Below are positions 15,405 through 23,086 of a DNA stretch of 64,000 nt, in pieces. The stretch comes from Candidatus Bathyarchaeota archaeon. Its GTDB lineage: Archaea; Thermoproteota; Bathyarchaeia; Bathyarchaeales; Bathycorpusculaceae. A model generated the notes under the pieces. The model did not search any database. It saw nothing but the letters and a program-made list of their open reading frames with translations, and had not been told where the DNA came from. Location of the stretch: NCBI GenBank assembly GCA_026014735.1, contig JAOZHT010000001.1, positions 868,001 to 932,000 of the forward strand. Direction: 5' to 3'. Position numbers and translations under genes: made by a program. The first letter of the stretch is position 1, and every line of letters begins with the position of its first letter.

Positions 15405-15645
15405 CAAACCAGTAGCCAAAAACCCCGAGACCTGCCCAGGACTGCGCGACATGCTGCAGCCCAAACCCGCCTACATCAACTGCCACGTCTGCGGCTCAGA
15501 ACTCGAAATCTGGAGCGACGAAGACAAAACCACCTGCCCCAGCTGCGGCGCCGAATGGAAACGCCCCGACCCCTCCGCGGCATGCCTTGAATACTGCCAG
15601 TACGCGGACAAATGCCGAGCCATAATCGATTCCCGTAGACACTAG
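15394..15645 (+). CDS. small zinc-ribbon protein of the iron-sulfur operon
   Basis: TTG 15394 lies 4 bases after the strong GGAGGTGAAA and inside the end of the ferredoxin gene (overlap of 11 bases). The 83-residue product has CHVCGSE and CPSCGAEW pairs, a zinc ribbon, then CLEYCQYADKC, which adds three more Cys. It forms the third gene of the arsR/ferredoxin operon. A T-rich stretch (CTTTAATTTTTTTATATA, about 15653-15671) follows and likely ends transcription. Confidence 0.75.
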   Translation: MSSDKPVAKNPETCPGLRDMLQPKPAYINCHVCGSELEIWSDEDKTTCPSCGAEWKRPDPSAACLEYCQYADKCRAIIDSRRH

Positions 15646-15730: not shown

Positions 15731-15865
15731 TGGCTTTCACTTAGTGCCGCTTGGTATGCACGCATAAAGCCCCTTACCTGTACCCTATCCGTAGTCTCTA
15801 TGTGAACTCGGGAGGCCCAACTTTGACATTAAGCGGGTTGCGTGGACAAGCGCCAGTGAAAGCCA
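15731..15865. ncRNA. 135-bp imperfect inverted repeat, candidate structured RNA or MITE-like element
   Basis: TGGCTTTCAC (15731-15740) pairs perfectly with GTGAAAGCCA (15856-15865). After a small internal loop, CGCTTG (15749-15754) pairs with CAAGCG (15847-15852), and CACGC pairs with GCGTG further in. The loop region of about 70 bases is GC-rich and non-coding on both strands. The long hairpin could be an RNA read from either strand or a small mobile element. On the minus strand it lies downstream of a NikR-like box and TATA. Confidence 0.5.
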
Positions 15866-15943
15866 CTTTTCTGTTTTTTGAGTTTGCTTTTTGAGGGCTT
15901 GTTTGGTGTTTTGGTGTGCTTGGGGCGGAACGCTTATATGTTC

Positions 15944-15971
15944 GTGTTACTTTCAAGTAAAAACGTAACAC
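15944..15971. promoter_or_regulatory. NikR-type operator GTGTTAC-N14-GTAACAC
   Basis: Half-sites at 15944-15950 and 15965-15971 are perfectly complementary and 14 bases apart. This is the form I recall for NikR of Desulfovibrio. A TATA-like CTTATATG (15933-15940) preceded by GCGGAAC lies just upstream on the plus strand, so the box would cover the expected start near 15960. The TATA is nearly symmetric, so minus-strand transcription is also possible. nikR is 2.9 kb away. Confidence 0.7.
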
Positions 15972-16125
15972 CGAAACCGGGTGCTACTTAACTCTACCAA
16001 CAACAAGTCCCACCGGTTGTGCGCCAAGGCAAACCTTTCAGCTGGCAGTAAACGGCTGAAACCCCAAAAAGGCGTCTAGACACATAAACCCCCGATTTAG
16101 TGCCTAAACGGGTTTACCTTGCCGC
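15960..16125 (+). ncRNA. candidate nickel-controlled structured RNA
   Basis: No ATG occurs on the plus strand between 15960 and 16150, and no gene on either strand uses this promoter. Complementary blocks include AACCGG 15975-15980 with CCGGTT 16013-16018, and CAAGGCAAACC 16025-16035 with GGTTTACCTTG 16111-16121 (one mismatch). The latter encloses TTTCAGC 16036-16042 with GCTGAAA 16055-16061, and CGATTTAG with CTAAACG (16093-16110). A GTG frame of 33 codons at 15981 lacks a ribosome site. The ends are estimates. Confidence 0.45.
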
Positions 16126-16149
16126 ATTTCTCTCCATTTTCCTGCCGAA

Positions 16150-16962
16150 TCAGGACAGCTTCTTATAAAGCAGCGTCAAGAGGAAAAACATCACCAAAAC
16201 AAACACAATAACCCCTGCAGTCACGATGTTAAACAGGGCAGAGAGCATAATCCCAATAACGGTGCTAATTATGCTAAAGCAAACCGCTGCCAGCAGAGTC
16301 TTGCGGAACGAAAAATTCAGTTTAAGCGCGCAGAGTCCCGGTATCACCAGAAGCGCCACCACAAGGATCGTGCCGATGACCTTAATCGACAAGACGATTG
16401 TGACGGCTACGAGTAAATCAAAAACCATCGAAAGCGCCCTTGTGGGTATACCCATAATCCGCGAATCCTCCTCATCAAACACCATCGAGAGCAGTTCCCG
16501 CCGGAAAAACCCTATGAAGAGCAAAACCGACATACCCAAAACCGAAACCAAAGCCAAATCGGCCCAGTCAATGGTCAATATGGAACCGAAGAGGTAACTG
16601 AAGAGCTCCACGTTAAACCCGCCGGCTAAACTAATCACGATTAACCCAGTGGAGAAACCCAGCGCCAACATAACCGCAATCGCGGAATCCGACGTCGTGA
16701 TTTTCCGCCGCCGCATATACGAGATAGCGAAAACCGCCAGCACCGAGACCGCCAGCGCTGTTAAAAGCGGATTTATGCCCAAAAGCAGTCCTAACGCGAT
16801 GCCGCCAAACGCCGTGTGCGAGAGGCCATCGCCCACCATGGCTTCTTTCTTTAAAATCAGAAACATCCCCACCAAGCCACAGGCAACCGCTGCAATTATG
16901 CCGCCGACCAGCGCATTCTGGAAGAACTGGTAGCCAAATAGGCTCAACGGATCAGCGCTCAT
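16150..16962 (-). CDS. znuB: zinc/manganese-type ABC transporter permease
   Basis: The 270-residue version starting MSADPLSLFG at 16962 is preferred; it overlaps the ATPase gene by 11 bases. Eight or nine membrane helices, the early GGIIAAVACGLVGMF segment and the GDGLSHTAFGG motif are diagnostic of the ABC-3 (ZnuB/MntB/TroC) family. It forms the channel for a divalent metal delivered by the solute-binding protein encoded at 17784-18746. It is the last gene of the operon; the region downstream is non-coding. Confidence 0.92.
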   Translation of the reverse strand: MSADPLSLFGYQFFQNALVGGIIAAVACGLVGMFLILKKEAMVGDGLSHTAFGGIALGLLLGINPLLTALAVSVLAVFAISYMRRRKITTSDSAIAVMLALGFSTGLIVISLAGGFNVELFSYLFGSILTIDWADLALVSVLGMSVLLFIGFFRRELLSMVFDEEDSRIMGIPTRALSMVFDLLVAVTIVLSIKVIGTILVVALLVIPGLCALKLNFSFRKTLLAAVCFSIISTVIGIMLSALFNIVTAGVIVFVLVMFFLLTLLYKKLS

Positions 16963-18868: not shown

Positions 18869-19264
18869 ATGGTAATCATAAGCCTCTCAATCCCCGACTC
18901 CCTCATACAACAAATCGACCAAACCATAAAAGACAAAGGCTTCGTAAGCCGCTCCGAACTCGCACGGCAAGCCCTACGGCTATACCTCACCGAGGATCTA
19001 AAACTAGACGACTTAGAAGGCAACGCCGTAGCCACCATAACACTCATCTACAAAGAAAACGCCGACCGACGCCGCCTCCTCGAAACCCAACACGTCTACG
19101 GCGGGTTAGTCTCCACCTTTCTCCATGCGCACATCCACCCGGGCTTTTGCTTGGAGGTCATAATTTTAAACGGGCAAGCTGAGCTTATTCGGAAATTCGT
19201 CGATAACCTGCGGCAAAACGAGCAAATAATGCAGATAAAAATCTCCGTGCTAACTCAGAAATAG
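18869..19264 (+). CDS. nikR: nickel-responsive regulator NikR
   Basis: This 131-residue protein has a ribbon-helix-helix domain (residues 1-45, SLSIPDSLIQQID then GFVSRSELARQALRLYL) and an ACT-like metal domain. The nickel ligands match the known family spacing exactly: TQH, then eleven residues later HAH, then six residues later Cys (HAHIHPGFC), equivalent to E. coli His76, His87, His89 and Cys95. It is expected to repress nickel uptake when Ni(II) is bound. Two candidate operators are in the window. It is divergent from znuA. Confidence 0.95.
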   Translation: MVIISLSIPDSLIQQIDQTIKDKGFVSRSELARQALRLYLTEDLKLDDLEGNAVATITLIYKENADRRRLLETQHVYGGLVSTFLHAHIHPGFCLEVIILNGQAELIRKFVDNLRQNEQIMQIKISVLTQK

Positions 19265-22973: not shown

Positions 22974-23000
22974 TTGTTACTAATTTTAAGTTGAGTAACA
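22974..23000. promoter_or_regulatory. NikR-type operator upstream of the FecBCD-type operon
   Basis: TTGTTAC at 22974-22980 and GTAACAC at 22995-23001 are 14 bases apart: the same palindrome as at 15944-15971 with one mismatch in the left half. It lies 27 bases upstream of the binding-protein ATG, where it could block transcription. Confidence 0.65.
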
Positions 23001-23086
23001 CACAATTGGCGAGTGCTAATAAATATTTCTGGAAGCAACAACCCAATATTCAACCCAGACATGGCGAATCTCAAAAATAAGCAAGA

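Follow-up and report, generated by a model that had tools for sequence, protein, structure and literature searches.

What does a NikR-type operator control when it lies in an intergenic region where no protein gene is at hand? The question arises at a locus of a Candidatus Bathyarchaeota archaeon, contained in a 64,000-nucleotide stretch of its genome (hereafter the window, to which unprefixed coordinates refer). As detailed below, the protein-gene-free stretch most likely yields a folded RNA of about 165 bases, the promoter of which would be blocked by the nickel sensor NikR.

A NikR-type operator between convergent genes

The site GTGTTACTTTCAAGTAAAAACGTAACAC is a GTGTTAC-N14-GTAACAC palindrome with no mismatches and corresponds to the NikR operator form of delta-proteobacteria, GTGTTAC-[N13/14]-GTAACAC (PMC545781). 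It starts 3 bp beyond a TATA-like element (Table 1) and lies in a gap of 504 bp bounded by positions 15645 and 16150. Plus-strand ArsR-type, ferredoxin and zinc-ribbon genes end at the left bound and a minus-strand ABC-3 permease gene ends at the right one, in convergent arrangement. No conserved coding sequence was found in this gap. A preliminary description of this DNA had reported a perfect box at a TATA-driven start, within a 500-bp region between convergent genes and with no protein gene there, and these observations are all confirmed. The perfect palindrome occurs twice in the 2.9-Mb genome and its reversed control not at all, and even the looser pattern GTRTTAC-N14-GTAAYAC is expected only about 0.06 times per genome per strand. 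The box is not due to chance.

Table 1. Coordinates in the window of the predicted RNA gene, its helices and associated NikR-related features.
Feature	Position	Strand	Remarks
TATA box CTTATATG, candidate RNA promoter	15933..15940	+	CTTATAT at equivalent position in 9/9 members
NikR-type operator (predicted), TATA box on one side and predicted start site on the other	15944..15971	.	motif as in PMC545781
Predicted structured RNA	15962..16145	+	fold, DNA-search homologues, covariance models
5' hairpin H1, AACCGG/CCGGTT, variable loop	15975..16018	+	covarying U-A/C-G pair in homologues
P1 5' strand GTGCGCCAAGG	16019..16029	+	partner 16117-16127
P2 5' strand AAACC	16031..16035	+	partner 16111-16115
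P3 hairpin	16036..16061	+	double-sided changes at 6/8 pairs (10-sequence alignment)
P3 apical loop	16044-16053	+	GGCAGTAAAC here; GGCTGTAAAC in the remaining eight strong members
P3b small hairpin	16063..16072	+	
P4 hairpin, CGTCTAGACAC ... GTGCCTAAACG	16073..16110	+	consensus CGATTAG/CTAATCG
P2 and P1 3' strands, closing the multibranch RNA	16111..16127	+	
NikR-family gene, divergent member of three genomic paralogues	18869..19264	+	2.7 kb downstream of the RNA
Second NikR-type box, 1 mismatch	22974..23001	.	precedes substrate-binding-protein/FecCD/ATPase transporter operon 22947-19927 (minus strand); homologous gene box-preceded in relatives

A conserved predicted RNA with a multibranch fold follows the operator

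A nucleotide search of 101 relatives, with positions 15900-16150 as the query, matched three genomes of the same genus over query positions 114-229 only, that is, downstream of the box; just upstream of the RNA, the three homologues carry a NikR-type box and CTTATAT. A covariance model (R1), built from the RNA core only of four sequences and excluding the promoter, retrieved five further strong members from the genus (G016, G021, G025, G014 and G009; E-values of 2.5e-18 to 6.2e-9) as well as two weak ones, G022 and G027. The box abuts the TATA box in all five strong members found with R1 and in neither of the weak ones. Strong members thereby total nine, the window copy and counterparts that mostly occupy unrelated loci in eight additional species of this bathyarchaeal genus. 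All nine display a NikR-type box abutting CTTATAT, and six fit GTRTTAC-N14-GTAAYAC exactly, when about 1e-5 exact matches would be expected by chance in the searched space. In G011, G007, G016, G021, G025 and G009 the box immediately precedes the TATA box, and G009 has an additional degenerate site downstream; in G000 (the genome of the window), G006 and G014 it immediately follows the TATA box. The left half-site is altered in G006 and G014, making their boxes less canonical; in other settings, half-sites of reversed orientation have been suggested for NikR.

The RNA is confined to 9 to 11 of the 32 genomes of one genus. Beyond this genus, nothing convincing was found in 257 genomes of the class, where a single weak match (E 0.016) came from another family, or in 398 genomes of the phylum. 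A pattern scan of contigs returned two true members, both of the genus, together with eight unrelated bacterial chance matches. At the Rfam gathering score the sole match in the window was a tRNA located elsewhere, and in permissive mode the RNA went unmatched both in the window stretch and at the eight homologous loci. Since the same RNA with the same type of switch recurs in eight related genomes, the window RNA is, judged by this conservation, a real and previously uncatalogued RNA gene.

Four extra or diverged relatives of the core have no NikR box in the available sequence: L050 (G021:C385:8526-8593), which is cut by a contig end and neighbours cobalamin-type genes, L051 (G025:C21:5902-5968), near a recombinase-like gene, L024 (G022:C21:6361-6436) and L025:168-259. 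A variant P3 loop, GGCUUAAAC/GGCUAAAAC, is common to L024 and L051.

The start of the RNA, at about 15962-15965, was placed from the TATA spacing, and its 3' end between 16128 and a pyrimidine-rich stretch finishing near 16145. The predicted RNA folds with a z-score of -2.65 relative to shuffled sequences, and its homologues fold more strongly than the window copy (z of -2.9 to -6.3). The overall fold consists of a 5' hairpin, with arms reading ACYGGGG/CCCCRGU in most members, followed by a P1/P2 stem around P3, P3b and P4; a similar multibranch outline was obtained when the nine members were folded singly. In a model-fitted alignment of ten sequences, which leans towards the covariance model, 91.6% of cells pair and 13 double-sided pair changes were counted, versus 3.7 after shuffling (none of 500 shuffles as high) and 1-3 in slid controls. 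The same picture emerged from a MAFFT alignment of nine sequences (10 such changes versus 4.1). Among unpaired segments, conservation is greatest in the P3 apical loop GGCUGUAAAC, which reads GGCAGUAAAC in this genome.

Nested complementary blocks had been read in the preliminary description as a structured RNA under NikR control, with no mechanism proposed beyond this, and covariation and the presence of the box in close relatives had been singled out as checks. With helix-preserving compensatory changes that clearly exceed those in both the shuffled and the slid controls, and the box present at all nine strong RNA homologues, that reading appears largely right.

Operator regulon and NikR proteins

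The pattern GTRTTAC-N14-GTAAYAC was detected in eight of the 32 genomes of the genus, all RNA-bearing, and its reversed control in none. Each of these eight genomes has at least one further box away from the RNA. Such boxes precede genes for transporter substrate-binding proteins (homologues of window gene 22947-21856), a transporter pair with an ABC ATPase, and a CooC-like ATPase; in G009, the nikR gene adjoining the RNA carries a box of its own. Boxes before likely nickel-uptake genes are what would be predicted of a NikR regulon. The RNA itself adjoins nikR in G009 and G021 and a box-bearing transporter gene in G016, and in G011 it lies between cbiM and LarB/LarC-like genes, as named from their translations. 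Taken together, these genome comparisons support an RNA gene with the above fold, a conserved arrangement of box and TATA, and co-occurrence with a nickel-transport regulon.

The NikR domain PF08753 is encoded by 31 of the 32 genomes, with three copies in this one. Consequently, the presence of NikR alone cannot account for which genomes have the RNA, and this explanation was rejected. The NikR of the window matches solved NikR structures. In a tree of 39 NikRs it stands out as a divergent paralogue, its DNA-binding strand being different (VIISLSIPDSLI versus VRVGVTFPPDLL), and the canonical NikR is encoded elsewhere in the genome; its divergent group otherwise comprises four RNA-bearing genomes and G027, and its gene adjoins a ZnuA-type transporter. 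This paralogue might sense another metal or recognise another operator, and it may or may not regulate the box at 15944-15971.

Proposed action in trans and the cdhA leader

We infer that the RNA is transcribed, that NikR binds and represses its promoter, and that it acts in trans, with cdhA as a target. The reading that we favour, and consider probable, is that of a NikR-repressed structured RNA made at low nickel, the loop of which would pair with target mRNAs, most likely among them the cdhA leader. The RNA would be an autonomous non-coding transcript of the plus strand, running from 15962 to about 16145 from the TATA promoter. When nickel is plentiful, NikR on the box beside the TATA element would block transcription; when nickel is scarce, the RNA would be made alongside the nickel-uptake transporters that bear the same box. 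The conserved P3 apical loop (GGCWGUAAAC), held on a rigid P1-P4 scaffold, would pair with target mRNAs and so adjust nickel-enzyme use, in the manner of RyhB or NikS. Neighbours of the gene vary between genomes with no consistent downstream gene, as for a trans-type gene.

The start regions of nickel enzymes were considered as targets, and several gene families were examined before a match emerged in the leader of cdhA, the gene for the alpha subunit of Ni-CODH/ACS. This leader contains AAACCUUUACWGAGGUU about 20 nt before a UUG start in all eight RNA-bearing genomes that could be compared. The sequence would form a hairpin whose 3' arm contains the likely Shine-Dalgarno GAGGUU and whose loop is complementary to that of the RNA: the match spans 7 nt (UUUACAG, with one change in this genome) in 8/8 comparable genomes, though the leader also occurs in RNA-less genomes. 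In this genome a change of CUGU to CAGU in the RNA is matched by a change of ACAG to ACUG in the leader (UUUACUG versus CAGUAAA). Among 234 other start regions, UUUACAG was found in one and UUUACUG in none. On this basis, low nickel might release NikR from the promoter and allow the P3 loop to kiss the cdhA leader hairpin, hide its Shine-Dalgarno and throttle the Wood-Ljungdahl pathway. We hold this part of the proposal only tentatively and think it rather doubtful, because the leader is present in RNA-less genomes, the single matching change would arise by chance with a probability of about 1 in 24 and could be coincidence, and several families had been examined. The leader hairpin is kept equally in RNA-less genomes, where both ACAG and ACUG occur; as it is conserved without the RNA, it has another role.

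Other candidates were discarded. The cdhA leader is present genus-wide, so it was rejected as a motif peculiar to genomes that bear the RNA. The exact motif CTTTACWGAGG was found in no other shared target, and a duplex-energy target guess at hydrogenase and prismane-family starts gave nothing consistent. A match to GTTTACAGCC inside a hydrogenase-operon gene of G000 and G006 was set aside because it tracks protein conservation and misfits the changed loop of G000.

The genus-wide leader hairpin AAACC-UUUACWG-AGGUU (L120-L149), which overlaps the likely Shine-Dalgarno independently of the NikR RNA, is an observation in its own right and suggests translational control of the Wood-Ljungdahl pathway.

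Instead of antisense pairing, a NikR-repressed structured RNA could work by binding a protein, serving as decoy or scaffold; it might, for example, mimic the cdhA leader and titrate a regulator that binds this leader. The RNA and the leader do share AAACCUUU and a GGUUU partner strand, the fold is an elaborate and rigid multibranch one with strong sequence conservation in helices P1 and P2, and conservation of the leader even in RNA-less genomes implies another leader-binding factor. Yet the most conserved unpaired part of the RNA, its apical loop, is complementary rather than identical to the leader loop, and no protein partner is known. We consider action through protein binding unlikely.

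Alternative readings of the locus

Being folded and intergenic, the element might instead be a riboswitch or leader acting in cis on a neighbouring gene, and in G006 the next downstream gene is indeed co-directional. Downstream genes differ from one genome to another, however, and are convergent in G000, G011 and G007, while the next gene in G006 has a TPP riboswitch of its own. Since neighbours differ between genomes and are often convergent, control in cis is very improbable. The TPP riboswitch of G006 (L015:1683-1795), which precedes an ECF-type transporter gene, scores 70 bits, above the Rfam cut-off.

The preliminary description had also allowed that the box could drive transcription of the minus strand, into a hairpin at 15731-15865. 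The TATA-like CTTATATG does read CATATAAG on the opposite strand, and a homologue of the hairpin lies near a NikR box in G025 (L059). There, however, the homologue has the same strand orientation but flanks the box on the opposite side, so that a single NikR promoter rule cannot give the same strand in both genomes. The hairpin element was found at none of the other RNA loci examined, and the minus-strand fold is no better than shuffled sequences (z -1.1). It is the plus direction that finds support, since conservation alongside the box and TATA is restricted to the downstream segment of the plus strand. A minus-strand transcript is accordingly a most unlikely product of this promoter, and this suggestion of the preliminary description was not borne out.

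The hairpin itself does exist as described, with perfect arms of 11 bp, and constitutes a separate element. It shows 76% identity over 131 nt to L059:1678-1791 (E 1.6e-18), with stem-preserving differences, and is not in Rfam; it is either a small non-coding RNA or a MITE-like palindrome.

Finally, the conserved unit can hardly be a short protein or its remnant: some members have open frames of up to 57 codons, but no start codon or frame is common to the members, core lengths range from 96 to 115 nt with non-triplet indels, and the helices are preserved by double-sided pair changes.

Comparison with known systems

Nickel-responsive small RNAs are, to our knowledge, known from very few bacteria. 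A working analogy for the NikR-repressed, trans-acting RNA proposed here is provided by RyhB, an iron-sparing small RNA repressed by the metalloregulator Fur. Both would be metalloregulator-repressed RNAs that limit the use of metal enzymes; here, in contrast, the metal is nickel, the host an archaeon and the RNA large and multibranched, no Hfq requirement is assumed, and targeting is putative.

A closer parallel in terms of the regulator comes from Helicobacter pylori, where repression of the small RNAs Nrr1, Nrr2 and IsoB/NikS by NikR was demonstrated by ChIP-seq, footprinting and Northern blot (PMC5385501, PMC8035401). The likeness lies in a NikR operator within the promoter of a non-coding RNA, and in an expected rise of this RNA when nickel falls. 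As in that system, the predicted operator overlaps the RNA's core promoter: in all nine strong members the NikR-type box directly adjoins the TATA box. The bathyarchaeal case differs in belonging to another domain of life, in its operator sequence and in being drawn from comparative genomics alone. With the delta-proteobacterial NikR regulon (PMC545781) it shares the operator sequence, its spacing and boxes before likely nickel-uptake genes, whereas the archaeal regulon would include a structured RNA gene.

Trans-acting small RNAs of archaea include Haloferax s479, which is linked to zinc transport (PMC8155600), and Methanosarcina sRNA162 (PMC3510493). These too are archaeal regulatory RNAs, one of them tied to metal transport, and they are set beside the present RNA by description. 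As far as we know, regulation of both takes place without NikR. We found no nickel-responsive archaeal RNA in the literature, of which our coverage was limited.

If our reading is true, RNA-based metal sparing arose in archaea too, through a conserved NikR-controlled RNA family in Bathyarchaeia, and this RNA would offer a handle on how abundant uncultured archaea of sediments and digesters regulate their carbon-fixing nickel enzymes. The members and covariation are sufficient for an Rfam-style model and for direct tests of targets. Set against the systems above, the regulatory logic is already known, and the novelty lies in the RNA family and its archaeal setting.
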